Assembly (NCBI GenBank): GCA_022819645.1
Contig: JAJEGU010000037.1
Location: forward strand, 1 to 45,669
Direction of reading: 5' to 3'
DNA length: 45,669 bases
Origin: Pseudomonadales bacterium
GTDB taxonomy: Bacteria; Pseudomonadota; Gammaproteobacteria; Pseudomonadales; Pseudohongiellaceae
This document shows, piece after piece, positions 1 through 12,804 of the stretch. Made by a program: the position numbers and the translations under genes. Numbering within the stretch: the stretch's first letter is position 1; every line of letters begins with the position of its first letter. Under the pieces are notes generated by a model. That model worked only from the letters and a program-made list of their open reading frames with translations. It did no database searches and had not been told where the DNA came from.

Positions 1-180
1 CGGGAAAGTAACATAAGTCCGCGGGTTTTCTCCCAACAACAGCCCCCCCCCCCCCCCCCCCCCCAAAAAAAACGCTGGTCGAAGCCGTCATTGCGGGCAT
101 TGAGTATTGAGCAGGGCACGGCCAGCGGGGCAATTCAGTTAGGAAATTACGAAGACCCGAATTATCGGCCCGAAAGTTAG
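1..180 (+). CDS. Lasso peptide precursor A1 (5' end outside window)
   Basis: The frame is open from base 1 to a TAG at 178-180; the start lies beyond the left edge. A run of 22 C (43-64) encodes seven prolines and is in frame with both sides. After it come W (codon 76-78), P three residues on, then L-R, S, and a T three residues before the predicted core. The core would be GAIQLGNYEDPNYRPES (127-177): Gly1 with Glu9 as ring-closing acid, and a C-terminal Ser. The same arrangement recurs in A2-A5, which is the main support. Known: lasso precursors have a leader recognised by a PqqD-like protein and a core whose Gly1 amine is joined to Asp/Glu at 7-9. Inferred: this gene is the last of a plus-strand unit extending to the left, and its present tract length is an ON state, if the unseen start is in this frame. 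Confidence 0.7.
   Translation, partial: RESNISPRVFSQQQPPPPPPPQKKRWSKPSLRALSIEQGTASGAIQLGNYEDPNYRPES
43..64. repeat. Poly-C tract, 22 nt, in precursor A1
   Basis: Uninterrupted run of 22 C followed by eight A. It sits at the same place in the leader as the tracts of the other four precursors. Runs this long slip readily during replication, so the count may differ between cells and may be miscounted in assembly. Confidence 0.95.
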
Positions 181-237
181 TTGACGGGGTCGCCGTGCAC
201 AGGCAGAAGGGAATCCACCTCACAAGCCGCACTATGA

Positions 238-1182
238 TCAGGCTGTGGACAACGCCCCGGAGCATGCAAAACGCGGTCGCGCTCCGTCGGAAAGATGGCA
301 TTCGATAAGGTCAGCAAGGTTGCCAAGCGGCACACCCCCGGCAGGCCGCGCGACTCGCGTAATCGGCAGGTTCTGCGCAAGTTTCGTCAAGACCTGGAAA
401 TGCAAGTCCCGGTTTCCCATCGCCCCAATGAGACGGCGGCGATGGGTGTGTCGCCACAGAGCTCGCAGCGCCTTTGCCGGCGTCATGCGGACCAGTTCAA
501 GGGTTTCGGTTTCCCCGGCTTGAAGAACATAGGCGGCCCGAACGGTTTGCGGCCGCATGTCGAATCTGTCGACAGGCCAGAGGTATTTGTCGAGACCGTC
601 CCGCACCCGGCGGCTACGCGATTCGGCTGAAAGACCGAGTTGTTCGAATGCATCGGACCATAAACGGAGATTCGGATAGCCGCACAGAACCCGCGGTGGG
701 TCAGGTGAAAAGGCTTGTATCGCCGCCACATCGTCGGTAAGGACCTGGTAGCCCCGGGCCGCCAATGCCGCGGCGAGTGTTGATTTGCCGGCGCCCGATT
801 TGCCCAGGAAAAGGACCGCGCCTCGCTCTGTACACACCGCGCTGGCATGCAGTGTGACCAGGCCCCGCTGCTGCAGCAGCGCCGTGCAAACGGTGCCCAT
901 CAGATAAGCCGCGGCGAGACTGTCGGCACCATTGGGGCTGTCCACCATAACATGGCGACCTTCGGTCACGCGATATCGAAGTCTTTCATCAACCCGTAGC
1001 AGAAAATCTCCGCGGGCCGCCTCCCAGCGGGATGAGGTTTGGGCCGGGTTAGGGAGCGCCTGTGGCACGGCGCCGCGTCGCACAGCGACATCCGCCTTTC
1101 CGGCCGGCGCCACGCCGAAATGGGGCAATGGCACTTCGGAACGGAAGCGCAGGCCATAGGCCGTGTAAAATCCGGCGTCCAC
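238..1182 (-). CDS. HPr kinase/phosphorylase-like protein (lasso tailoring kinase 1)
   Basis: 314 aa. The C-terminal half resembles the HPr kinase/phosphorylase core: P-loop GKSGAGKST near residues 127-135, preceded by LHASAV, and an acidic LTDDVAAI motif about 15 residues after it. The N-terminal half resembles kinase 2 (2727-3662). Known: HPr-kinase homologues in lasso clusters (the paeninodin type) phosphorylate the side chain of a C-terminal Ser of the peptide. All five precursors here encode a C-terminal Ser, so that role fits well. The start is GTG at 1180-1182, 16 bases after the stop of precursor A2, so the two are probably co-transcribed. Family assignment is firm; the substrate is inferred. 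Confidence 0.82.
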   Translation of the reverse strand: MDAGFYTAYGLRFRSEVPLPHFGVAPAGKADVAVRRGAVPQALPNPAQTSSRWEAARGDFLLRVDERLRYRVTEGRHVMVDSPNGADSLAAAYLMGTVCTALLQQRGLVTLHASAVCTERGAVLFLGKSGAGKSTLAAALAARGYQVLTDDVAAIQAFSPDPPRVLCGYPNLRLWSDAFEQLGLSAESRSRRVRDGLDKYLWPVDRFDMRPQTVRAAYVLQAGETETLELVRMTPAKALRALWRHTHRRRLIGAMGNRDLHFQVLTKLAQNLPITRVARPAGGVPLGNLADLIECHLSDGARPRFACSGALSTA

Positions 1183-1198
1183 CCAGTCCGGTCAGCGA

Positions 1199-1393
1199 TC
1201 AACTTTTCGGAAAAAAGTAGGTGTCTTCAAGATATACAGAGTAATAATGGCCACCGCCCGTGCCACGCTCCACATTGATACTTCGAACAGAGGGCGCATG
1301 CCAAGGCCTACTTGGGGGGGGGGGGGGGTTATAGCCATCCGGCGCATGCGCGGCGGCGGTCTGGCCTGATTGAATCACTGTTTTGCCGTTCAT
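1199..1393 (-). CDS. Lasso peptide precursor A2 (in frame)
   Basis: 64 aa, ATG at 1391-1393 with a GAGG-type ribosome site about 8 bases upstream. Codons 22 onwards read Tyr-Asn followed by five prolines encoded by a 15-C run (1314-1328 on the plus strand as G). Then come W-H-A-P-S-V-R-S-I-N, a T three residues before the core, and the predicted core GHYYSVYLEDTYFFPKS (1202-1252). Gly1 to Glu9 would form a nine-residue ring; Asp10 is a possible hydroxylation target and the last residue is Ser. It sits between the oxygenase and kinase 1 genes on the same strand. This is the only one of five precursors whose start, tract and core can all be seen in one frame here. Confidence 0.82.
   Translation of the reverse strand: MNGKTVIQSGQTAAAHAPDGYNPPPPPSRPWHAPSVRSINVERGTGGGHYYSVYLEDTYFFPKS
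1314..1328. repeat. Poly-G tract, 15 nt, in precursor A2
   Basis: Run of 15 G on the plus strand, read as proline codons on the minus strand. Its length keeps start and core of A2 in frame; a change of one or two bases would cut the core off. Confidence 0.95.
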
Positions 1394-1446
1394 GGCGTGG
1401 GCCTCTATCGTGTCTTGGCAGCCTTGAGGGCCACCATTATGGCTAT

Positions 1447-2097
1447 TCAGTCTTGCTCGTCAAGACAGCAATTTGCCCACTGCCCGTCGAAGACCTCGAA
1501 GATGAAATGCACGCGGTCGTCGCCGCCGCCATTGAAGGCGCCGTGTGGAATGATGTTGTTTACCTCGTAGGCGTGTCCTTTCCGCAGATGATGTTCTTCA
1601 CCGCCGACAAAAAGCGTGGCGGCGGGCTCGGTGCGTATCGGAACATGAATCTTGTGCGCGCAGCGTGTGGCTTTTCCGCCATCGACATGTTTGTCGATGC
1701 GGTGGCCGGCGGCAAGAGAGGCAAGCATCGCTTTCGGATACACCGGCTCCGAAAATCCATAGGCGGCGCTAGCCTGATCCATGACCGGCAGCAGCGAACG
1801 GCTCCAGATTTTCCAGGCCGGGTTCGAGCGAAAGGAGCGTATGTCCTGGAAGCTGCAGAACCGGAAGATGACGTGGCGGGTGCTGTGGAAGCATGCAAAC
1901 TTGTTCGGTTTGTTTTCGTCCTCCCAGCGCCAGACGTTTTCCGTGAGACGGTCGAGGATGGCTTCCAGCGGCGCGATGTCCACGGGTCCAAGCGGGCGGA
2001 TGCCGCAGGGGGGTTTGCGGACGGGAGGCGGCTTCGCGATCAAGCCCGTGGGCGCGCCACGACGCGAAGCCGGCGGTTCGGCCCCGGTCGGAATCAT
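1447..2097 (-). CDS. Aspartyl/asparaginyl beta-hydroxylase-like oxygenase
   Basis: 216 aa. The C-terminal half carries an H-x-D iron site (HVDGG within AAGHRIDKHVDGG), a distal His in NNIIPHGAFN and the following Arg in DDRVHFIFEVFD, as in 2-oxoglutarate/Fe(II) oxygenases of the Asp/Asn beta-hydroxylase family. The N-terminal 45 residues are Pro/Arg-rich and without clear family match. The ATG overlaps the stop of the upstream PqqD-like gene (ATGA), so the two are translationally coupled. Known: an oxygenase of this general kind hydroxylates Asp in the lasso peptide canucin. Inferred: it acts on Asp in the cores of A1, A2, A3 or A5, which contain E-D, P-D or E-D-P pairs. The reaction on these peptides is untested. 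Confidence 0.75.
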   Translation of the reverse strand: MIPTGAEPPASRRGAPTGLIAKPPPVRKPPCGIRPLGPVDIAPLEAILDRLTENVWRWEDENKPNKFACFHSTRHVIFRFCSFQDIRSFRSNPAWKIWSRSLLPVMDQASAAYGFSEPVYPKAMLASLAAGHRIDKHVDGGKATRCAHKIHVPIRTEPAATLFVGGEEHHLRKGHAYEVNNIIPHGAFNGGGDDRVHFIFEVFDGQWANCCLDEQD

Positions 2098-2405
2098 TGG
2101 TCCGCAGCCTCGCCCGAATCCACGGCGACCAGCCCGAGAGCAGCCAACTCTTCAAGGAAACTCGCAAGATCCTTGAGGCAGGTCTCATCGTCGACGTCAT
2201 ACTCGGCGGTCAATGCGTCCCGCAATTGCGCCAGAGTGAGCCTGTCCTTCAGCAGCATCCAGATTCGCGCGCCGATGACATCGAGTTCATAGTACCGTCC
2301 CGCCCTGGAGTCAAGCATGACCACCTGGTCGTCGAGTTCACTGAACACCACCGAATCGCTACGCGCAAGAGGGGCGGAAACTGGAAGGGGCATGACAATA
2401 ACCAA
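2094..2405 (-). CDS. PqqD-like RiPP recognition element (lasso B1 protein)
   Basis: 103 aa, full-length for a stand-alone PqqD/RRE protein. It shows the typical pattern: VVFSELDDQVVMLDSRAGRYYELD (strands), GARIWMLL, and a helical tail with E-E-L-x-x-L-G-L. Known: such proteins bind the leader of the precursor and deliver it to the B2 peptidase and the cyclase. It lies directly after precursor A3 (stop at 2417) and overlaps the oxygenase gene by four bases. It is the only leader-binding protein visible, so it presumably serves all five precursors, whose leaders share one motif. Confidence 0.88.
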   Translation of the reverse strand: MVIVMPLPVSAPLARSDSVVFSELDDQVVMLDSRAGRYYELDVIGARIWMLLKDRLTLAQLRDALTAEYDVDDETCLKDLASFLEELAALGLVAVDSGEAADQ

Positions 2406-2416
2406 TCAGGCTTCAA

Positions 2417-2615
2417 TCAACTGGGAGGGTGGTAATCCGGGGCCTCGCAACAATATGCGATATGACCGGATTCCGTATGCTGTTCAAGGTTAACCATGCG
2501 GATGCGGGGCGCTTTCCAGGACAACTTGCGGCATGCACTGTCGTCGGGGGGGGGGGGGGGGATTTATAGGCATTTCTTTCACGCTGGCTGTGTTGCTTGA
2601 CAATATACTGTTCAT
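2417..2615 (-). CDS. Lasso peptide precursor A3 (tract out of frame by one)
   Basis: ATG at 2613-2615 follows AGGA seven bases upstream and gives MNSILSSNTASVKEMPIN before the poly-C run (16 C; plus-strand G 2546-2561). After the run the frame that matters reads D-D-S-A-C-R-K-L-S, W-K-A-P-R-I-R-M-V-N, T three residues before the core, then GHIAYCCEAPDYHPPS (2420-2467). Gly1-Glu8 would close an eight-residue ring; Cys6-Cys7 and a terminal Ser are notable. The start frame needs 15 or 18 C; with 16 the gene is out of frame, and the frame open to the core has a TAA just before the tract. Another frame from an ATG at 2638-2640 is open through the tract but gives no core. The gene precedes the PqqD-like gene in the operon. 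Confidence 0.72.
2546..2561. repeat. Poly-G tract, 16 nt, in precursor A3
   Basis: Run of 16 G on the plus strand. One base fewer, or two more, would join the ATG at 2615 to the core-coding frame. Confidence 0.95.
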
Positions 2616-2726
2616 GGTCTGGTCCTGCCAAATGGCACATTCGGGTAAAATACTCCTACCCAAACAACTGAATTCAAGATTTCTCCAGTATTATACAGGA
2701 GCAGCGCAATTTCCAGCCCACCAGAC

Positions 2727-3662
2727 TTGCCGAAAGGCCTTTCAAGCGCCGCCGACTTGTATTGCTATCGAGCGTACGGCCTGAACGTTGACTCGGACGT
2801 AGAATTGCCCTGGCCCTCCGCAGCCGCTCGCAACGGTGAGATTGACGTTGCGATTCGCCTCGGCGATGTTCCGCGCTATCTGGAGTCACCAGTGGACCGG
2901 CACGGGTACTGGCAGACGGCGGACGGAGCTTTCCTGATCAATCCGGATGGCGGGCCCCGTTGGCTGGTTTCAGAAAAAGGGCGTCTGGTCAGGGTCGCGC
3001 CAGCGAAGGATGGGGATGTGGGCGTTCATCTCATTGATTCGGTCCTGGCCGCCTGTTTGCAAATGCGCGGCATCATTGCCCTGCATGCAAGCGCCATTGC
3101 CACGGCGGCGGGCGCGGTCCTGTTCATGGGCTCTGTGGGGGTTGGCAAATCCTCCCTCGCGGCCGCTTTGACCGATCGCGGTTACCCGCTGCTCGCCGAC
3201 GGAATCGCCGCCATCGCCCGGGACAATGGAGGGAACCCGCTGGCGCTTGGCGGGTTCCCGCGAATCCGCCTGTGGGCCAGGTCGATAGACGCGCTGGACA
3301 AGACCTGGCGGAGGAGGAAGGCCGGTCCAGCCACCCGGGCCGGGGTCGGGAGCTACGCGGTTCCCGCGGGGCGATTCAACGGGAAGGCCGTCGCGGTTCA
3401 CGCCGTGTATGTGCTTTCCAGCACTGTTGACCGGGAAGTCGTCATCAAATCGCTACCGCCGGGCCCGGCATTTGCCGCCCTGGTGCGCTGGTCCTTCCGG
3501 ATGCGCTTCTTGCGCGGCCTTGGCGAGGAAAAAAACCATTTCCGCACAGTATCCGCCGTTGCCTCGCACGCGACGATACAGCGGCTCGTGAGACCGCACG
3601 TCGGCCACCCGCCCGCTGTCCTGGCCGCCAAGGTGGCCGAACGCTTGCCGCCGCCAGCGTAA
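2727..3662 (+). CDS. HPr kinase/phosphorylase-like protein (kinase 2)
   Basis: 311 aa, homologous to kinase 1 along its length (N-terminal CYRAYGL, central LHASAIA, P-loop GSVGVGKSS near residues 132-140). The acidic motif after the P-loop is ADGIAAI instead of TDDVAAI, so one conserved Asp is Gly; this may reduce catalysis or mark a different role. The start is uncertain; the TTG at 2727 is used because the frame shows no better-placed start. It is divergent from precursor A3 and is followed after seven bases by the sulfotransferase gene, so these two form their own short operon. Function as peptide kinase is inferred from family and context. Confidence 0.75.
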   Translation: MPKGLSSAADLYCYRAYGLNVDSDVELPWPSAAARNGEIDVAIRLGDVPRYLESPVDRHGYWQTADGAFLINPDGGPRWLVSEKGRLVRVAPAKDGDVGVHLIDSVLAACLQMRGIIALHASAIATAAGAVLFMGSVGVGKSSLAAALTDRGYPLLADGIAAIARDNGGNPLALGGFPRIRLWARSIDALDKTWRRRKAGPATRAGVGSYAVPAGRFNGKAVAVHAVYVLSSTVDREVVIKSLPPGPAFAALVRWSFRMRFLRGLGEEKNHFRTVSAVASHATIQRLVRPHVGHPPAVLAAKVAERLPPPA

Positions 3663-3669
3663 CGCGGAC

Positions 3670-4530
3670 ATGTCCCTGATACTGCTGGCGTCCTACCCCA
3701 AGTCCGGCAACACCTGGATGCGGGTGCTGCTTTCCAACTACCTGGCCGACAACGACGAGCCCGTCTCGATAAACGCGCTCGTGGGCGTTGTGCTCCAAAG
3801 CCGCCACGAGTTCGACGAGCGGCTGGGGCTATCGTCCTGGGCCATGACCCCCGATGAGATTCTGCACCGCCGGCCCCGGTTTCACGAATTGCTGGCGGCG
3901 GACCTGGAATCCCCCTCCTTCGCGAAAGTTCACGAGTATTACCTGCGCCTTCCCGACGGCGCGCCGCTGTTTCCCCGTGCGGCTTTTTCCAGTGTGGTTT
4001 GCATCGTTCGCAATCCCCTTGATATTGCCGTTTCCTACGCGCATCACATGCAGACCAGTATTGACCGGACGATAGAATTCATGGCTGAACGTCGGGCAAT
4101 GCTTTCGCCCCCGCGATTCGATGGCGGCACCCAGCTGCCGATTCCGATTTCCGACTGGAGCGGCAACGTGTCGAGCTGGCTGAACCAGGATGAGTTGCCG
4201 ATGAAGCTGGTCCGCTACGAACATTTGCACGCCGACCCGGAAGCGGTGTTTTCCGGGGTTGTGTCTTTCGCGGGCTTGCCAATGGACAGGGAACGGCTTG
4301 TGAAAGCGGTGGAGAACTCCCGGTTCCAGCGGTTGCGCGAGCAGGAAAAGCGGGTCGGGTTCAAGGGGCGGCAACCCACCGCTCCCAATTTCTTTAGGAA
4401 AGGCCTGATTGGCGATTGGCGCAACGTCCTCTCCCGAAAACAGGTTCAATGCCTGGTGGAGCGGCACGGCCCCGTGATGGCTGAACTGGGCTACCTGGAG
4501 GAAGCGGAGCGATTTCTGGTAAAGGGTTGA
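3670..4530 (+). CDS. PAPS-dependent sulfotransferase
   Basis: 286 aa. The N-terminus has the PAPS 5'-phosphosulfate loop YPKSGNTW (residues 9-16) and the 3'-phosphate motif CIVRNPLDIAVSYAHH near residue 115, both standard for cytosolic-type sulfotransferases; length is normal. It transfers sulfate from PAPS to a hydroxyl (or amine). In this context the likely substrate is a lasso peptide: most predicted cores are rich in Tyr, several beside acidic residues, and also contain Ser. It follows kinase 2 by seven bases and converges with the cyclase gene. Family certain, substrate inferred. Confidence 0.82.
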   Translation: MSLILLASYPKSGNTWMRVLLSNYLADNDEPVSINALVGVVLQSRHEFDERLGLSSWAMTPDEILHRRPRFHELLAADLESPSFAKVHEYYLRLPDGAPLFPRAAFSSVVCIVRNPLDIAVSYAHHMQTSIDRTIEFMAERRAMLSPPRFDGGTQLPIPISDWSGNVSSWLNQDELPMKLVRYEHLHADPEAVFSGVVSFAGLPMDRERLVKAVENSRFQRLREQEKRVGFKGRQPTAPNFFRKGLIGDWRNVLSRKQVQCLVERHGPVMAELGYLEEAERFLVKG

Positions 4531-4545
4531 ACGCGGGGCGCGGCG

Positions 4546-6405
4546 TCAGTCCACATGCCAGTCGAGGAGCGCAAGGGCCCGCGACAATTTACCGCCGCGC
4601 ACGTTTTTGCCCTGAACCTTGGACTCCAGGTGCGCAAGCAGCATCGGCATGTCGAGATACTCCGCCCGGGCGGGCGGCTCAGACCTGGCGGACAGATGCC
4701 GGTGAACCGTTGGCAGCGCTTCATCGAAAGCCTGCCGCCACGGCCGGTAGCGGGCGGGGTCGGTCTTGACGGACCGCTCCAGAACGGGCGGGGGCAGGAC
4801 GGAGCGCAATGCGCGACGCATGAACCAGCGCGAGCGGGGGCCGCGTCGGAATTGTCCGGCTGGCAGGCCCAGAACGAATTCGATCAGGCGGCGGTCCAGC
4901 AGGGGATATCGGTACTCGACTCCCGCCCTCGAGCCGCTCGCCGCCCAATCTTCCATGCGCCGGTTGAGGTGTCCGGGTTTCAGGCGCGCCAACTGGGTTT
5001 GCCGAACGCCGCCCTCGCGCGCGAACGGCCGCGGTTTCCGGTACTTGCGGGCCAGACCCGGAGCGGCGTAGGATTGCCGCCTGCGGGGCAGTTCCCTCCG
5101 GAGCAGTCGCTCCAGGCTGCCCGCCGCGCGAGGATGCGCCGCGGGCAGCACGACGTTCCTCAGCAGGAACATCCAAGGCCGGTTCGACAATCCGCGCGCT
5201 TCCCGATGCAGTTGGCCCAGACGACCTTCGCGCAGCAGTTCGACGTAGTAGCCGGCGCCGCTGTAGGAGGCGACCTCATCGCCGCCCCAGCCGGAAAGGA
5301 TCACGCGCACGCCAAGCCCGGCGGCGCTGTCCTGCACCAGCGACTCGTGAAGCAGCGTGCCGTCGCGGTTTGGAATCCTGGTGACATCGTTGCGCAGCAT
5401 GCCAACAATGTGGTCGGTGGAGGCTGCGTGATAAAGAGGTTGCAATTGCTCCTGGGCGCAAACGGACTCTATCAGGCGGTACTCATCGGCTTCTTCCGCG
5501 GTATGCGAACCGGCCGGGGGCGGATGCCAACAGAACGCATGGAGTTTCCGGCCCAGGGGCCGCAGCTCCCGGGACGCGAGCACGGCCACGCTGGAAGAGT
5601 CCAGTCCGCCGCTCAAATGCACGCCCAGTGGATGCGCTCCATGCAGGCGGTCGCGCACCGCCCGGCGGTAGCGGTCGAGGAACTCGCTTTCATAGTCCTC
5701 GTCGCACTCGTGGCGAACCGGGGGCGCGTCCTCGGGCCGCCACCAGCGCTCCACCCGTTCCGATTTGACGTCCACGGTGATGCTGTGCCCAGGCGGCAGG
5801 CTGCGCACGCCGCGGAAGAAGGTTCCATCCGTTCCACCCGCGCTCTCCCTGTAGGCGGCCATCAGAAAAGCGGCGACTTGCGAGTCGTCCAGCCGGTCAT
5901 CCACTCCGGGCGCGGCAAGCACCGCGGCGATGTCGCTGGCGAAAGAGAATTGCCCGCCGGGGAGTTGCGAGTAAAAAAACGGTCTGGCGCCAACCGCGTC
6001 GCGCGCGCAGAACAGCCGCTGCTCTGGAGAGTCCCATACGGCGAAGGCGTAGTCGCCCTGCAGGCGCGGGGGGCATTCTTCGCCCCAACGTTCGTAGGCC
6101 CGCAGGATCAGTTCCGAATCATCGGCGCGGGCTCTCTCCGGGTCGTCGAGGCCAAGGGCATCGGCGAGCTCGGCCCGGTTGTCCAGGCGCGCATCGGCAA
6201 CTACGGCAAGCCCCGGGATGGAGCGTCGCTCCCGTACCGGGGTGGTCTCGGCAGGGTCAGCCCAAAGGTCGCGGTACCTGAAGGAAACCGGCCCCTGATC
6301 GGTTCCTCCGGCGCGACCGCGTCCGGGCAAGGCCGCGAGCATGGCCGTCACGGCGTCCGCATTCGTATTGCCCCGGCGATGGATACCGCAGATTGCGCGC
6401 GCCAA
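4546..6405 (-). CDS. Lasso cyclase, asparagine-synthetase-like (C protein)
   Basis: 619 aa. N-terminal class-II glutaminase-like domain beginning ARAICGIHRRGN, then an Asn-synthetase domain with the PP-loop SGGLDSSSVAV near residue 263 and the LSGWGGDE motif common in lasso cyclases. Known: such enzymes adenylate the Asp/Glu side chain of the core and join it to the Gly1 amine to make the isopeptide ring. The start is TTG at 6403-6405 preceded by GGGAGAAGG. It lies downstream of precursor A4 (stop 6516) on the same strand and converges with the sulfotransferase gene. It is the only cyclase in the window and so must serve all precursors, with ring sizes predicted as 8 or 9 (and an anomalous 10 for A5). 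Confidence 0.87.
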   Translation of the reverse strand: MARAICGIHRRGNTNADAVTAMLAALPGRGRAGGTDQGPVSFRYRDLWADPAETTPVRERRSIPGLAVVADARLDNRAELADALGLDDPERARADDSELILRAYERWGEECPPRLQGDYAFAVWDSPEQRLFCARDAVGARPFFYSQLPGGQFSFASDIAAVLAAPGVDDRLDDSQVAAFLMAAYRESAGGTDGTFFRGVRSLPPGHSITVDVKSERVERWWRPEDAPPVRHECDEDYESEFLDRYRRAVRDRLHGAHPLGVHLSGGLDSSSVAVLASRELRPLGRKLHAFCWHPPPAGSHTAEEADEYRLIESVCAQEQLQPLYHAASTDHIVGMLRNDVTRIPNRDGTLLHESLVQDSAAGLGVRVILSGWGGDEVASYSGAGYYVELLREGRLGQLHREARGLSNRPWMFLLRNVVLPAAHPRAAGSLERLLRRELPRRRQSYAAPGLARKYRKPRPFAREGGVRQTQLARLKPGHLNRRMEDWAASGSRAGVEYRYPLLDRRLIEFVLGLPAGQFRRGPRSRWFMRRALRSVLPPPVLERSVKTDPARYRPWRQAFDEALPTVHRHLSARSEPPARAEYLDMPMLLAHLESKVQGKNVRGGKLSRALALLDWHVD

Positions 6406-6448
6406 TGGCCTTCTCCCTCATCAAATCCGCTGACCTGTGGAATCGGTC

Positions 6449-6500
6449 ATGCCAGCCCCTTCCTCGCTGGAGGATGCGTACCTTGAAGGGCAATGGTTTC
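6449..6500 (+). pseudogene. Relic of the 3' end of a TOPRIM gene
   Basis: In the frame beginning at ATG 6449 the first dozen residues read PAPSSLEDAYLEGQWF, matching PAPASLEDACLEWERF at the true end of the TOPRIM gene (10620-10691). No upstream part is left. It marks the left limit of the duplicated segment 6449-7010 / 10640-11290. Confidence 0.5.
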
Positions 6501-6515
6501 AACGCGGATCACTCG

Positions 6516-6739
6516 CTAGGACTGTGGATGATAGCTATAGGAGCCGCTCACAAATTCATAACTTCTTGAATTTATCCCGCCTTCGGTGTTGTTTGTAAGA
6601 GAGATTTCCCTAATGGACGGCGGATTCCAGTGAAACGCGTGCTTCCGGGGGGGGGGGGGGTAATTTGGGTGCTATCGTGGACAGGCGAGCGATCCCGGCC
6701 CATCCGCGAATTTCCGATGCCAGCGCTATCTTTCGTCAT
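6516..6739 (-). CDS. Lasso peptide precursor A4 (tract out of frame by one)
   Basis: The core frame ends at a TAG (6516-6518). It reads W-N-P-P-S-I-R-E-I-S, T three residues before the core, then GINSRSYEFVSGSYSYHPQS (6519-6578): Gly1-Glu8 ring, C-terminal Ser. The ATG at 6737-6739 (or 6764-6766 in the same frame) leads into the poly-C run; with 14 C present the start frame passes into another frame (continuing GSTRF...), while 15 or 12 C would join start and core. The core frame as it stands has a TAG before the tract. No strong ribosome site is seen. The leader half near the core is about 90% identical in DNA to that of A5, but the cores differ completely. It lies between an exporter-gene remnant and the cyclase gene. 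Confidence 0.7.
6647..6660. repeat. Poly-G tract, 14 nt, in precursor A4
   Basis: Run of 14 G on the plus strand; one more base would restore the start-to-core frame. Confidence 0.95.
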
Positions 6740-6789
6740 GTCGTTCGAGACCGGATAAGTATTCATGGGTAATTTGTAGCAAAGTGGCC

Positions 6790-7010
6790 TCAGGATTGCA
6801 AATCCAGCACTTGGTCGGGGTCTGCTTCGCGGAGCAGGGAGTCACCATGGGTGACAACCACTATGGTAGTGTGCCCACGCAAGCGGCGCAGCGTTTCTAT
6901 CACGCGGCATTCGTTGTCGGAGTCCAGTTGGCCGGTAGGTTCTTCAAACACAAACAGCGGGGTTTGCGCAACAGCAGCTTGGAATGCGAATCGGATACGG
7001 ATTACAATTC
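6790..7010 (-). pseudogene. Remnant of ABC exporter 3' end
   Basis: The last 50 codons read EEPTGQLDSDNE, RVIETLRRLRGHTTIVVVTHG, LLREAD and so closely match the C-terminus of the intact exporter at 11092-12804 (Walker B, H-loop). Similarity fades at about 7000, where the ABC signature motif should be; nothing further upstream is exporter-like. The open frame continues to 7164 without family resemblance. It is the exporter end of the duplicated segment that also holds precursor A4. Confidence 0.8.
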
Positions 7011-7150
7011 GCCGCGGGCGGGACTTGCTGCGGCATCGGCCAGACCAGCCGAAAGGTATCGAGATTCGGGAGGTGTCCGCCCCATTCTTACCGCATCTGG
7101 ATATTGGATGAAATTTGTGTGCCCAAGTAAAAAACTGGCAAGGTTGGATT

Positions 7151-8263
7151 ATGATTAACCGCATCTACATTGATAATTTTCGTTGTCTCGTCAATTTCGA
7201 AATCGAACTATCGCCAATCGGCTTGTTCCTGGGACCAAACGGAAGCGGCAAGAGCACGGTATTCGAAGTACTACGGCGACTGCAATCATACATCAGCGGG
7301 AATTGCCGGATAGAAGAAGCGTTTCCAAAGCAGGACATCACTCGCTGGCATAATCGTTCAGAGCAAAGATTCGAGTTGGGAGTTTCTCTTCCTGAAGGTG
7401 GTCTGACGTACTCGCTAGTCGTGGAACACTCCGAGACGGAAAATCTGTGTCGCGTCAAAGAGGAAAAGCTGGCTGAAGGGCCTTCGGAGCTTTTCCACCG
7501 AAAACTGGAAAACGTTTCCCTTTTTCGCGATGACGGTAGCGAGGGTCCCAGGTATCCCTATGATTGGACCCTCTCGGCTTTGGTTTCAATTCAGGCGCGG
7601 CACGACAACTCAAAGCTCACCGCATTCAAAAGGCAAATCGACAATCTGGTCATCGCTGCCATTTCTCCAAGCAATATGGAGAAAATCAGTGACAAGGAGG
7701 CTGTGCAACTTACCGCCCGCATGGAAAACTTCATTTCCTGGTATCGGAGAGTTTCCCAGGAAAACATGGCTTCCATGCTGGAGCTATTCGGTGAACTGAC
7801 GGCAGTGCTCGAAGGTTTCGATTCCTTCAGCTTCAAGGATTCGGGGGAGAGCGGGAAGATGCTCAAGGTCTTGTTCAAACAGGAGAGCAAGCCCCGGCGA
7901 ACCCGGCAGTATGATTTTTCCGAGCTGTCCGATGGACAGCGGGCCCTGATTGCGCTCTACGCCTTGTTGCACTCTTCGAGTGAGCGAAATCTTTGCCTGT
8001 TCCTTGACGAGCCCGACAATTTTGTTTCCATCAGGGAGATTCAGCCATGGCTGGCAAGCTTGCGGGAACTCTGCGGGGAGCGGCTGGATCAAGCGATCCT
8101 GATTTCCCACCACCCCGAGATCATTGACTCACTCGGATCGTCCAAAGGCTACCTGTTTGCTCGCGAGCCAGAGTCGCCCGCTCGAATTCTCTCCAGTATC
8201 CCCGACTCGGAAGAAAGCGGTCTGACTCTTTCTGAAATCCTGGCCAGGGGCTGGGAGAAATGA
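7151..8263 (+). CDS. AAA/ABC-type ATPase of a defence-like gene pair
   Basis: 370 aa, starting MINRIYIDNFRCLVNFEIEL; the ATG at 7151 has AAGG upstream and begins the canonical first strand, so an upstream start is not used. Walker A is GPNGSGKST near residue 32; a signature-like ELSDGQRAL lies near 257, Walker B LCLFLDEPDNF near 282 and an H-loop ISHHPEII near 322. This is the SMC/RecF-like ATPase of OLD-type and related anti-phage systems. The stop overlaps the start of a TOPRIM gene (ATGA). Known: such ATPase/TOPRIM pairs act in phage defence. Which named system it belongs to cannot be settled by eye. Confidence 0.8.
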   Translation: MINRIYIDNFRCLVNFEIELSPIGLFLGPNGSGKSTVFEVLRRLQSYISGNCRIEEAFPKQDITRWHNRSEQRFELGVSLPEGGLTYSLVVEHSETENLCRVKEEKLAEGPSELFHRKLENVSLFRDDGSEGPRYPYDWTLSALVSIQARHDNSKLTAFKRQIDNLVIAAISPSNMEKISDKEAVQLTARMENFISWYRRVSQENMASMLELFGELTAVLEGFDSFSFKDSGESGKMLKVLFKQESKPRRTRQYDFSELSDGQRALIALYALLHSSSERNLCLFLDEPDNFVSIREIQPWLASLRELCGERLDQAILISHHPEIIDSLGSSKGYLFAREPESPARILSSIPDSEESGLTLSEILARGWEK

Positions 8264-8832
8264 GTTATTCGGAAGTGATTGTGGTATGCGAAGACGATGC
8301 GCAAGGCAGTTTTATCCGGACTTTTCTGAAAAAAAGAGGATATGGGCATCAACGAATCAGGGTGCTTGGATTTCCAAGTGGCCGGGGAAGCGGCGCCAAA
8401 TTTGTATTGGATAAAGTCGCTGGCGAACTGAAAGGATTCCGCGCATGGCGCGCAAAAGCCCTTATTGTCATGATCGATGCGGATACCCACGAAGTTTCAC
8501 AGAGAAAGGCGCAGTTGAACAAGGCATGTCAAGCCAGGGATACAGCCGCCAGGAGTGCGGAAGAGACCGCTCTTTTTCTGGTTCCAAAGAGAAATATCGA
8601 ATCCTGGTTTCGTTACTTGAATAACCAGGAATGGAACGAGACTGAAAACTTCAGACTTGCAACGAATGACGGTCTGGCAAAGGAAGCAGCGAGAAATCTA
8701 CACCGGATGTGTTTTCTTGACTTCGACGGTTTAGCCCCTGGCCGCGATGATCCCAATTCGTACCTGGCTGATTTTGCGGGAGTTATCCCATGGGCTTTCG
8801 GGAAGTCTTTTGTAGTGCCTAGCGGATTTTAA
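8260..8832 (+). pseudogene. TOPRIM-domain protein gene, 3' end split by an IS
   Basis: The reading frame now gives 190 aa, but only residues 1-152 (to 8715) are native. They carry TOPRIM-like acidic sites: VVCEDDAQ at the N-terminus and VMIDADTHE near residue 71, then FLVPKRNIESW. From 8716 the frame runs into an insertion sequence and ends by chance at 8832. The native end lies beyond the element: from 10620 the frame reads DEQKLKEPAPASLEDACLEW and two more residues to a TAG at 10689-10691, giving an original length of 175 aa. It probably is the nuclease partner of the ATPase with which it overlaps by four bases. The hybrid protein may still work, as only the last 23 residues are replaced. 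Confidence 0.78.
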
Positions 8833-10595
8833 TAATTGACATTCGCGGTGGGGGCCGGTACACTCCCCGCCATGTTCGTTCGCGTCAAAAGCACCCCCAA
8901 CAGTCCCCGGAAGACCGTCCAGCTGGTGGAGGGCGTCCGGGTCGACGGCAAGGTCCGCCAGCGCATCGTGCGCTATATCGGCGTGGCCGCCGACGAGGCC
9001 GAGTTGGCCCGGTTGCAGCGGGTTGGCGCGTTTCTCAAGGCCCAACTGGAGTACGAGCGGCAGCCGGGGCTGTTTCCGCCGGAGCAGGTGGCCGAGGAGT
9101 TGATCACGGCGGGCTTGAATGCCGCCGAGGCGCCGGATTGCAAGCCGCTGGGGGTGGACCTGGGCGATCTGCGGGAAGAACAGCGCGTGGTCACCGGTAT
9201 GCACGAAGCCTATGGCCAAGTCTTTCGGGAATTGGGTCTGGACCGGTTGCTGCCGGTGCGGCAGCGGGCTTCCCGGCAAGCCTTGTTCCACACGGTCATG
9301 GCGCGCATTGCCAATCCCCAAAGCAAGCGCGGCACGGTGCGCGAGCTTGGCGGGGATTTTGGCGTCAGCCTGCCCCTGGAGAAGGTATACCGGATGATGG
9401 ACCGGTTGGACGACCGGGTCATTGGCAAGCTGCGCGACACGGTGGCGGCGGCCACCGGCGCTTTGTTGCCGGAACCGCTGGATGTGCTGTTTTTCGATTG
9501 CACCACGTTGTATTTTGAATCGGTGGCCGAGGATGGCGGCGAGGATCCGCTGCGGCAGTTTGGTTACAGCAAGGACGGCAAGCCACAGCGGACGCGGGTG
9601 GTGTTGGCGCTGATGGTGACGCGGGAGGGTTTACCGGTGGGGTACGAGGTGTTTCCCGGCGCCTTGTATGAAGGGAAGACCTTTCTGCCGGTGATGGAGG
9701 AGATGAGGAATCGACATGCGGGGCTGGAAGCGGTGTGCGTGGCCGACGCGGGGATGTGCGCGGAAGAGAACCTGGCCGAACTGGAGTCCGGGGGGCACCG
9801 GTACATTGTCGGGGCGCGTCTGCGGTCCTTGCCGAAGGCGCTCGGGGAGCGGATCGCCGGGGCGGGGCGTTTTCGCGGGGCGGCCGGGATGGAGGCGGGC
9901 GCCAGGGTGGGGGTGTTTCGCCACCGGGGCCGGCGCATTGTGGTTGCCCACAGTCCCAAACGGGCGGCGAAGGACCGGCGTGACCGGCAAAAGCAGATCA
10001 AGCGCCTGCTGAACAAACTGGGCAAGAAAGGCGCGCCCGGGTCCCTGGGAGATCGACCCGGACAAGATCGCCGCCGCGGCGCGCTGGGACGGATTGCACG
10101 GTGTGATCACCAATGTGCGCGGCCTGTCCGCGGCCGAACTGTTTGCGCGCTACCGCGGTCTGTGGCAGGTGGAGCGCGGCTTTCGGATCAACAAGCATGA
10201 TCTGAAGGTAAGGCCTATCCACCACTGGACCCCGCGCCGCATCCGGGCCCATCTGGCCCTCGCCTACATGGCCTTTGCCTGTGTGCAGCATCTGGTGTAC
10301 CGAATCAAACTGCAGAAGAAGCGCCCGCTGTCGCCGGAGGCCATCCGCGACGCCTTGATGGCCAGGCAGTGCTCGATCCTCAAGCATGTGCGCAAACCCG
10401 ACCGCTATGTGGTTCCCGCCCCCCGCACGGTAGAGGCCGAGTTGATCTACGATGCTCTCGGACTCAAGTTCACGGATGTGCCGTATGCCTTGAAATGATC
10501 CCCCGCCAGGAAGGAAAACCCCGGATGTTGTGCCTAGAAAAAATGCACAACCAAATGAAATCAATCACTTACGAAATGAAACCGTCGAAGTCAAG
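8716..10595 (+). mobile_element. IS1634-like insertion sequence with 24-bp target duplication
   Basis: The ends are a 17-bp perfect inverted repeat, CTTGACTTCGACGGTTT at 8716-8732 and its complement at 10579-10595. The 24 bp before the left end (8692-8715) are repeated exactly after the right end (10596-10619), which fixes the borders at 1,880 bp. Known: IS1634 itself makes unusually long and variable target duplications. It interrupts the TOPRIM gene close to its 3' end; the perfect duplication suggests a recent insertion, although its transposase is broken. Confidence 0.85.
8872..10498 (+). pseudogene. IS1634-family transposase, frameshifted
   Basis: The ATG at 8872 starts MFVRVKSTPNSPRKTVQLVE. 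The IS4-like DDE parts are visible: LDVLFFDCTTLYFES, VADAGMCAEENLAELESGG. Near 10,030-10,050 the frame is lost; the rest continues in another frame from WEIDPDKIAAAARWDGLHG through QVERGFRINKHDLKVRPIHH (the C-terminal catalytic Glu region) to the TGA at 10496-10498. A small deletion at the shift is likely because residues expected there are missing. The transposase should be inactive unless the shift is an assembly error. Confidence 0.82.
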
Positions 10596-10691
10596 AGAAA
10601 TCTACACCGGATGTGTTTTGATGAGCAAAAGCTCAAGGAGCCAGCGCCCGCCTCGCTGGAGGATGCGTGTCTTGAATGGGAGCGGTTCTAG
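10596..10691 (+). other. Displaced 3' end of the TOPRIM gene
   Basis: It begins with the second copy of the 24-bp target duplication and continues for 23 further codons to TAG 10689-10691. Joined to 8260-8715 it gives the uninterrupted gene. Confidence 0.75.
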
Positions 10692-10823
10692 CATGGATAA
10701 CTCACGAGTGGGTTACTTCGACCAACCATTGTCCGAGGAGTCCAGTCTCTTAAGTCAAACTACGCTGAACCCAAGTCTGCGCCCCAAACCGCAGAGGCAT
10801 TGTTGTCCATGAACGGAACCCTT

Positions 10824-11038
10824 TCAACTTTGTGAACCATAAACTATATCTTCGCCCCTGATGGCGTTCACATATTGCCCATTTGAGGTGCAGTTCAGAA
10901 GAGAGACTTCCCTAATGGACGGCGGAGTCCAGGGAAACGCCTGGTTCCGGGGGGGGGGGGGTAATTTTCACTGCCACGGACAGGTGGAGGACCCAGGCCC
11001 ATCCGCGTATTTTCGTTGCCGATGCTATCTTGTGTCAT
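10824..11038 (-). CDS. Lasso peptide precursor A5 (tract out of frame by one)
   Basis: The core frame ends at TGA 10824-10826. It reads F-P-W-T-P-P-S-I-R-E-V-S, T three residues before the core, then GQYVNAIRGEDIVYGSQS (10827-10880) with a C-terminal Ser. The first acids are Glu10 and Asp11, so a standard 7-9 residue ring is not possible; either the ring is unusual or this copy is decaying. The ATG at 11036-11038 (MTQDSIGNENTRMG, similar to A4's MTKDSAGIGNSRMG) leads into a 13-C run; 14 or 11 would put start and core in one frame. No clear ribosome site. It lies 53 bases after the exporter gene on the same strand. Confidence 0.62.
10949..10961. repeat. Poly-G tract, 13 nt, in precursor A5
   Basis: Run of 13 G on the plus strand, at the same leader position as in A4; one more base would restore the frame. 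Confidence 0.95.
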
Positions 11039-11091: not shown

Positions 11092-12804
11092 TCACAAGAC
11101 CAGCACCCGGCCAGAGTCCGCTTCGCGGAGCAGAGCTTCACTGTGGGTGACAATCACGATGGTCGTGTGCCCACGCAGGCGGCACAGCGTTTCAATCACG
11201 CGACCTTCATTGTCGGAGTCCAGTTGGCCGGTAGGTTCGTCTAGCACGAGCAACGCAGGCTTGCGCAGCAGCGCGGCGGCCAGAGCGACCCGCTGCCGTT
11301 CACCACCGGAAAGCCGGTTGCCGCGGTCTCCTACCACCGTGTCCAGCCCGCGGTCCAGCGTGTCGATGAAATTGGCCGACGCGAGTTGCAGGGCCTCCCG
11401 CATTTCAGTCTCCGTCGCGCCAGGGGAAGCCCAGGCAAGGTTTGCGCGTACGCTTTCGTGGAGCAGGAACGGATCCTGGGGGACATAGGCGGTCGAGCGC
11501 CTCCAGCGGCGCAGAAACGGTCCGCGCAGAGGAATGCCATCCACCAGGATACAGCCGCGGGTCGGCTCGAGCAGGCCGAGGATGAGGTCCGCCAATGTTG
11601 TCTTGCCGGAACCGGAAGGGCCGGTGATGGCGAAGATTCCATTCGCCGGAATGCGGAAGGAAATACCGGAAAGCGCGCTTGCCGAGGAATCCGGATAGTC
11701 GAATCCGAGGCCGCGCGCCTCGATGTCCTTACCTGATGTCAGCGCTGTTTCATCCGCGTCCATGGGTTCCGCCGCCGCCTCCAGTTCCTCTCTCATGGCG
11801 GTGACCGCGGCATGGGCGGGCAACGCGTTGACGAAGGTTTGCGCCCATTGCAACAAATTCAACGCGGTGGGGACGACCCTGGCGAAAACCAGGGCGAGCA
11901 GCGCCAGCTCTGGCAACGTGAGACGGGCGCCGGCAATTGAGTACCAGACCAATCCCGCCAACGCGGCGGCCGCGGCGAATTGCAGCGCGGCCCGCGTGGC
12001 CGCGCTGAGGGTGGCGAAAGCAATTTGCCGATCACGCACATCCGCGGTCTGTCTTTGAAAACGTTCGATGTGCGCCGCCTCGGCGTTCTGGCTTTTGGCG
12101 AGTTTCAGCCCATCCAGGAAATCGGTCGAATAGCCGCGCAGGACGAGGCCGCTGCGGGTGAGTTGCCGCCCCAGCGAGTGTGACCGGCGCAGCAGGGGAC
12201 GACTTGCCGCCGCCAGGGCCAGGCCCGCCATGGCGGCAACCGCGGCCACCGCCGGCGAGACTGCGAGGGCGACCGCAAACTGAACTGACGCCATAGTGGC
12301 GCCTACCGCCAGTTGCAGCAGTTGAAAAGCCGCGTTGCCGACGCGTCCCACGCTGTCGGTCAGCAGGTGTTGAATATCGGATCTACGCCGTCCCAGTAAT
12401 TGGCCCCAGGCGGCTCTGGCAACTGCCGCGTACAGGTCGCCGCGGATTTTATCCACAAATTCCAGCCTCAGTCGGGTGGTCAGGGTACCGCGAGCCCAGG
12501 CGGCGACGGAACGAACCGCCGCCAGCGCCAGAAACACGGCCAGCACGCCAGGCAGGTTGAGCGGAACTCCAAGCGACACCGCAATTTGAGTGACTGTTTC
12601 GACGATCGGGATGGCATCGCCACCGGTGCTGGTCAGCCCCGCCGCTTGCAGCAATGGGACGATCATGAGCAGGCCGAATGCCTCGGTTACGCTGGAGGTC
12701 AATAACAGCAACATCACCAAGGCACAGCGCCCAGGGGAGGCGGCAATCAGGTTGCGAAGGAGAGCCCAGGCCTCGCCACGCGTGGAAGACAATTTGACTG
12801 ACAT
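11092..12804 (-). CDS. ABC exporter, fused membrane and ATPase domains (lasso D protein)
   Basis: 570 aa: six hydrophobic segments in residues 20-310, then the ATPase domain with Walker A GPSGSGKTT near 389, signature LSGGERQRVA near 493, Walker B LLVLDEPTGQLD near 514 and an H-loop VTHSEALL. There is no N-terminal C39 peptidase, so it exports an already processed product. Known: lasso clusters encode such a type-IV exporter for secretion and self-immunity. It is upstream of precursor A5 on the same strand. Its 3' end has a decayed duplicate at 6790-7010. Confidence 0.85.
   Translation of the reverse strand: MSVKLSSTRGEAWALLRNLIAASPGRCALVMLLLLTSSVTEAFGLLMIVPLLQAAGLTSTGGDAIPIVETVTQIAVSLGVPLNLPGVLAVFLALAAVRSVAAWARGTLTTRLRLEFVDKIRGDLYAAVARAAWGQLLGRRRSDIQHLLTDSVGRVGNAAFQLLQLAVGATMASVQFAVALAVSPAVAAVAAMAGLALAAASRPLLRRSHSLGRQLTRSGLVLRGYSTDFLDGLKLAKSQNAEAAHIERFQRQTADVRDRQIAFATLSAATRAALQFAAAAALAGLVWYSIAGARLTLPELALLALVFARVVPTALNLLQWAQTFVNALPAHAAVTAMREELEAAAEPMDADETALTSGKDIEARGLGFDYPDSSASALSGISFRIPANGIFAITGPSGSGKTTLADLILGLLEPTRGCILVDGIPLRGPFLRRWRRSTAYVPQDPFLLHESVRANLAWASPGATETEMREALQLASANFIDTLDRGLDTVVGDRGNRLSGGERQRVALAAALLRKPALLVLDEPTGQLDSDNEGRVIETLCRLRGHTTIVIVTHSEALLREADSGRVLVL

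Follow-up and report, generated by a model that had tools for sequence, protein, structure and literature searches.

Why does each of five short genes in one bacterial contig carry a long run of cytosines just ahead of the conserved leader motif of a predicted lasso peptide precursor? The contig, from a member of the Pseudomonadales, was analysed as a whole (45,669 bases; hereafter the window), and the precursors found in it were compared with those of related genomes. All five runs sit at the same place in their genes, the reading frame behind such runs is nearly random, and neighbouring copies with identical flanks differ in the run only. Slipped-strand phase variation, by which each lasso peptide would be switched separately, is in our view the best reading of these genes and very probably the right one. 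The precursor genes (A to E) and their runs are the following, every run being poly-C when read along its gene:

1..180, + strand: precursor A, whose start lies outside the contig; motif and core WSKPSLRALSIEQGTASGAIQLGNYEDPNYRPES read from base 76
43..64, + strand: C22 run of precursor A, from the homopolymer scan
1199..1393, - strand: precursor B, 64 aa, in frame; ATG at 1393; core WHAPSVRSINVERGTGGGHYYSVYLEDTYFFPKS; homologues found
1314..1328, - strand: C15 run of precursor B, from the homopolymer scan
2417..2615, - strand: precursor C, out of frame; ATG at 2615; core WKAPRIRMVNLEQHTESGHIAYCCEAPDYHPPS; orthologues aligned
2546..2561, - strand: C16 run of precursor C, from the homopolymer scan
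6516..6766, - strand: precursor D, out of frame; ATG at 6766 or 6739; core WNPPSIREISLTNNTEGGINSRSYEFVSGSYSYHPQS
6647..6660, - strand: C14 run of precursor D, from the homopolymer scan
10824..11038, - strand: precursor E, out of frame; ATG at 11038; core WTPPSIREVSLLNCTSNGQYVNAIRGEDIVYGSQS
10949..10961, - strand: C13 run of precursor E, from the homopolymer scan

These five are the only C or G runs of at least 8 bases in the window, in which no A or T run of at least 9 bases was found. A first-pass annotation of this DNA had described runs of 22, 15, 16, 14 and 13 bases in short genes, each followed by a shared motif, and our scan and translations confirm both: behind all five runs stands W-x2-P-x-[ILV]-R-x7-T-x2-G, i.e. 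with two residues between Thr and Gly in every case, and each reading ends in a C-terminal Ser. The same annotation had placed two genes in frame and three out of frame, which holds for B (in frame) and for C, D and E (out of frame), but for A can be given as likely only, as its start lies beyond the contig. Base 1 of the window is base 1 of contig C70, and of the three frames of precursor A the core-leading one alone is open to this base; the other two stop within the first 16 bases, and no later start was found in them before the run. Since the sole frame open to the contig edge leads into the core, precursor A is likely in frame. The genome of the window (3.10 Mb) contains 13 C runs of at least 13 bases, five of which sit in these five genes within 11 kb, a clustering that is not due to chance. 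A DDE transposase gene broken into two frames (8836-10498) separates precursor D from precursor E, and the flanks of these two precursors resemble a duplication.

Are such runs found elsewhere? A search of other genomes for the motif behind a C run had been named beforehand as a check, and the corresponding DNA pattern, C10-N(0-30)-W..P.[ILV]R, is present in 4 of 97 genomes, the window's own among them, as compared to 0 of 97 for the reversed pattern used as control. In a cyclase scan of genome contigs, with a 22-sequence alignment as query, the best 80 of 545 confirmed loci were kept, and eight of these 80 show a C run of at least 9 bases before the W motif (L017, L018, L022, L023, L029, L036, L047 and L050). 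Of 61 genus members, five together gave 22 matches to a profile of leader and core, including a marginal one in G042 (E 0.05, 13 residues) that is probably a chance match, and eight closed chromosomes gave 56. Fifty of the 56 closed-chromosome regions were taken, of which 41 rows were kept, one was dropped as a duplicate and eight failed a filter for motif, length and C-terminal end; the genus member G022 contributed eight of its nine profile matches, the ninth having a broken motif. The 41 closed-chromosome precursors, 20 from four genus genomes and 11 from eight other loci make up a set of 72, in which a run was scored if at least 8 C or G bases lay within the last 130 bases before the motif. 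Such a run is present in 48 of the 72 (46 poly-C, 2 poly-G), and the runs of predicted lasso precursors range from 8 to 30 bases overall. Run-bearing precursors occur in six of the eight closed chromosomes (seven in G097, one in G098, seven in G099, one in G101, two in G102 and ten in G103), that of G101 having a C8 run only, and none was found in G100 and G104.

Is the frame maintained across the run? Start codons were picked by a rule that took no account of the frame behind the run, and 47 of the 48 run-bearing precursors could be scored in this way. Twelve of them are in frame, 17 are shifted by +1 and 18 by -1, a split compatible with one third each (uniformity p=0.52), whereas 19 of the 24 run-free precursors are in frame (Fisher p=3e-5 for the contrast). 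One row of the run-free group, L025:-7635, is probably not a precursor. Moreover, 35 of the 48 run-bearing genes contain no in-frame start codon between run and W, and would therefore have no leader unless the two parts are joined across the run.

The run is also the position at which closely related copies differ. The closed chromosome G103 harbours three tandem copies of one precursor, spaced 752 and 758 bases apart, with identical flanks of 563 bases ahead of the run and 177 behind it; their runs measure 19, 13 and 17 bases, two copies being in frame and one out of frame. A gene with the leader element WRRPSIR has C9 in the genus member G018 and C15 in G022, the nearest other differences lying about 90 bases before and 55 bases after the run. 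Gene C, compared across three genomes, has C16, C14 and C14 and is in frame in G022 and out of frame in the other two; between G018 and G022 the runs are equal, and a one-base difference just before the run sets different frames. Two nearby paralogues in G098 contain a broken in-frame C6 stretch and an out-of-frame C14, respectively. The relatives of precursor B comprise six proteins, the window's own included: P0002 is in frame, P0003 has its frame shifted at the run through the leader and restored behind the motif, P0004 is open from a different N-terminus, in P0005 both run and motif W have been lost, and P0006, a separate protein record of unstated source, displays the wrong-frame downstream residues of window gene B. 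As in homopolymer phase-variable genes, a long run in the coding region thus sets the frame, and in the assembled sequences its length varies between copies with identical flanks.

Two precursors have poly-G at the position of the poly-C, namely G15 in G022 (L139:553) and G14 in G033 (L147). A structural polyproline linker as main role of the run is rejected in view of these two genes and the near-random frames, because a linker would need a kept frame and C rather than G, and neither holds. The poly-G genes also bear on another alternative, which had been raised in the first-pass annotation as well, i.e. that ribosome or RNA polymerase slips on the run, so that every length yields some product and the run serves as a dosage device. 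Slippage is known to occur at runs of CCC codons and at stretches of a single base; the poly-G genes, however, would need a different slippery codon, and such slippage is compatible with switching at the DNA level, so both may act together. As a replacement for DNA-level switching we regard it as unlikely. The frame spread, the tandem copies, P0006 and the swap to poly-G all agree with the proposal that slippage would switch single lasso peptides.

Could the scatter in length be mostly sequencing or assembly error in homopolymers, all true genes being in frame and the run coding for a structural polyproline linker? Long homopolymers (13 to 30 bases) are prone to such errors, and two contig ends lie within some 42 bases of long C runs (contig C70 starts 42 bases before run A, and contig C29 stops 18 bases behind a C18 run at L011:8484-8501), which suggests that the assembly may break at runs. 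However, drafts and closed chromosomes scatter in the same way: of 19 genes in the four genus drafts, 6 are on and 6 and 7 are off in the two wrong frames, and of 28 genes in the closed chromosomes the corresponding counts are 6, 11 and 11. Poly-G in two genes would encode polyglycine, and the frames of the C-type orthologues are separated by one base just outside the run. Loci L017 and L018 come from metagenome-assembled genomes (MAGs) with isolate names beginning jk18x, and PMC9531527 describes a MAG with this prefix from Caribbean Ircinia sponges, along with NovaSeq 2x150 reads and Megahit assembly. By their prefix two of the drafts apparently stem from Illumina 2x150 reads, and the two MAGs apparently come from sponges; for the OY282 chromosomes we claim neither a sponge origin nor long reads. 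Error as the main source of the scatter is thus very unlikely.

The runs might also arise as a side effect of mutational bias where long C runs are tolerated by the genome, and reside in the precursor genes because these are dispensable. C runs of at least 13 bases number 13, 10, 16 and 9 in the four precursor-bearing genomes of the genus, and nine of ten other members tested have none (G057 has two); moreover, 8 of the 13 runs in the window's genome fall outside the window. On the other hand, MutS, the sole repair gene checked, was found in all 14 genus genomes examined, and loss of MutS as cause of the runs is therefore unsupported. In the genes found, the run precedes the W motif across unlike N-termini, and genes that are off remain open behind the run to the conserved C-terminal Ser, but these two points are weak since the searches required the motif and an open frame. 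Taken together, we consider mutational bias alone quite unlikely.

Some runs outside the precursors deserve mention. At L014:7966-8344 (G000:C69:25965) a C14 separates a TTG from a TACAAT-like hexamer some 100 bases ahead of a precursor of the NHLP type of ribosomally synthesized and post-translationally modified peptides (RiPPs), which lies close to an ABC exporter with a C39 peptidase domain; the arrangement suggests a promoter-spacer switch for a further RiPP. At L012:2198-2210 (G000:C30, minus strand) poly-G13 falls into the hydrophobic part at the N-terminus of a protein that is predicted to be secreted and measures at least 779 aa, and at L015:8083-8096 (G000:C75) a C14 is found just upstream of an M28-family peptidase gene. 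As runs thus also occur at an NHLP-type precursor, a secreted protein and a peptidase, run-based variation may extend beyond lasso genes. A phase-variable methyltransferase considered at G000:C41 is unsupported, the open reading frame behind that run matching BrnT toxin and helix-turn-helix families.

Which points weigh against phase variation of the precursors? First, the precursors are known from their genes alone, transcription and products being predicted, and run lengths were taken from assembled sequence, where homopolymer errors in sequencing or assembly could add to the scatter. Second, the main start rule gives doubtful starts in several genes, some disfavoured by orthology (e.g. window C, G018 L144:6203 and G022 L139:8537), and for this reason four other rules were tried. 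The trend is unchanged with all of them (p from 8e-5 to 0.04): in frame are 12/45 run-bearing vs 18/23 run-free precursors with the ATG of the best Shine-Dalgarno sequence, 9/33 vs 16/20 with the ATG of a strong Shine-Dalgarno sequence, 10/45 vs 15/23 with the farthest ATG and 17/45 vs 15/23 with the nearest ATG, which gives the weakest contrast (p=0.04). Third, 13 of the 48 run-bearing genes have an in-frame ATG, GTG or TTG after the run, which might bypass it. Fourth, homologues altogether without tracts had been named as a counter-argument at the outset; indeed 24 of the 72 precursors, many of them in other subfamilies, have no run and neither has P0005, so that members of the family can do without it. 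Run-free homologues fit an optional switch and are not a refutation. Finally, the B2 protease of lasso peptide biosynthesis gave 0 matches in the draft genome of the window.

Are the genes lasso precursors at all? The window contains the following genes for putative biosynthetic enzymes and export:

4546..6405, - strand: asparagine-synthase-like lasso cyclase (C), 619 aa; PF00733 4e-36, above cut-off; NF033535 333 bits (curated cut-off 525)
2094..2405, - strand: PqqD-like leader-binding protein (B1, RiPP recognition element), 103 aa; PF05402 69.1 bits (cut-off 23.4); NF033536 67.6 bits (cut-off 80)
1447..2097, - strand: aspartyl/asparaginyl beta-hydroxylase-like protein, possible tailoring enzyme; PF05118 1.2e-8; overlaps B1, with the same order in L019
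238..1182, - strand: HPr-kinase-like protein, possible precursor kinase; PF07475 2e-5 and TIGR04352 1.1e-9, both below cut-off
2727..3662, + strand: second HPr-kinase-like protein; PF07475 2.4e-5 and TIGR04352 1.1e-8, both below cut-off
3670..4530, + strand: sulfotransferase, possible tailoring enzyme; PF00685 2.2e-25
11092..12804, - strand: ABC exporter (possible D); C39 peptidase domain absent among the Pfam families listed

The best named models are those of the lasso cyclase (NF033535) for the cyclase and of the lasso PqqD protein (NF033536) for B1, both matching under their curated cut-offs. The leader element W-x2-P-x-[ILV] is present in 5/5 window precursors, and so is the Thr, which lasso leaders have at -2 but which stands here at the T-x-x-G spacing described above. 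A Glu is invariant across 25 aligned precursors; with the Gly as the first residue, its position is 8 or 9 in the first four precursors (A to D) and 10 in E, whereas in lasso peptides the N-terminal residue is joined to an Asp or Glu at 7 to 9. Kinase-modified lasso peptides of the paeninodin type have an HprK-like kinase and a C-terminal Ser; here Ser ends 5/5 precursors, and the two HprK-like genes present are both below curated cut-offs. B2 is found above cut-off in 4 of the 61 genus genomes (G018, G022, G033 and G003), the first three being all three other precursor-bearing members (3/3); the B2 model NF033537 is above cut-off in both relatives checked, G018 and G033. All eight closed chromosomes have a B2 match, one copy each with two in one chromosome. 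In G022 B2 lies on the same contig about 25 kb from the precursors, in G018 on another contig and in G033 directly behind a precursor; in the window's genome it was looked for beside a syntenic 265-aa gene and is not there. As B2 is sometimes far from the precursors in relatives, that of the window's genome most likely falls in an assembly gap of the draft, a real absence being possible. The genome of G003 contains a different lasso-like cluster with B2 and cyclase (L148:2745-6399) and no C runs of at least 13 bases, and no match to the leader and core profile was obtained in it. Judged by its gene content, membership in the lasso class holds at the system level, B2 not being found in this draft; the window products are predicted lasso peptides, which would be threaded.

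How would such a switch work? Replication slippage, i.e. slipped-strand mispairing, would add or remove bases of the run. With one length in three the start would be joined to W-x2-P-x-[ILV]-R, the presumed binding site of the PqqD-like B1; at the remaining two lengths a short useless peptide would result. B1, B2, cyclase and kinase, being shared, would process whichever precursors are on, so that the peptide subsets would differ among the cells of a lineage, and the run-free precursors of the same genomes would be constant members. Beyond the switching of single peptides, we lean towards the idea of a combinatorial lasso phasome: the dispersed precursors of a symbiont genome, as many as about twelve and often with a homopolymer switch of their own, would be served in trans by one B2 and shared enzymes, and clonal cells would each have a different, heritable and quickly changing peptide set.

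Most known cases of phase variation concern surface structures and DNA-modifying enzymes. If phase variation of the precursors is true, it acts on secreted natural products as well, and chemical output varies from cell to cell within a clone. Genome mining may then miss precursors of this kind, of which 35 out of 47 scorable genes are out of frame as assembled, and extracts of one symbiont could differ between samples.

How does this family compare with known systems? Among the open-access matches listed (titles and abstract openings) none describes a homopolymer run in the leader of a lasso peptide or of any other RiPP, which is weak evidence of absence, and no open-access match combined lasso peptides with phase-variable genes. 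Highly modified lasso clusters have been described in sponge microbiomes (PMC9426513); they carry added sulfo-, glyco- and nucleotidyltransferases. Words on homopolymer, poly-C, slippage, phase variation or frameshift are absent from the main text of that paper.

In gene content there is a likeness to lasso systems with split B1/B2 and a kinase (the paeninodin type and the bsf cluster), which share with the present family the cyclase, the PqqD-like B1, B2 (here in the relatives), a kinase-like gene, an ABC exporter and the conserved C-terminal Ser. According to PMC10368454, the leader of BsfA has a YxxPxL motif at -17 to -12, and phosphorylation of earlier lasso peptides occurs at the C-terminal Ser; our aromatic-x2-P-x-[LIV] takes the same positions when the Gly is numbered 1. 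In contrast to these systems, the present family has W for Y, T-x-x-G for T-x-G and a homopolymer run in the leader, and many dispersed precursors share one B2 gene (two in one of the eight closed chromosomes).

Poly-G/C runs in coding sequence constitute contingency loci in Campylobacter, Neisseria and Helicobacter, and their targets are mainly surface structures, glycosyltransferases and methyltransferases. Like those contingency genes, the precursor genes carry a long G/C homopolymer towards the 5' end of their coding sequence, its length sets the frame, and there are several such genes per genome. Unlike them, the target here is a family of peptide precursors that share their processing enzymes.

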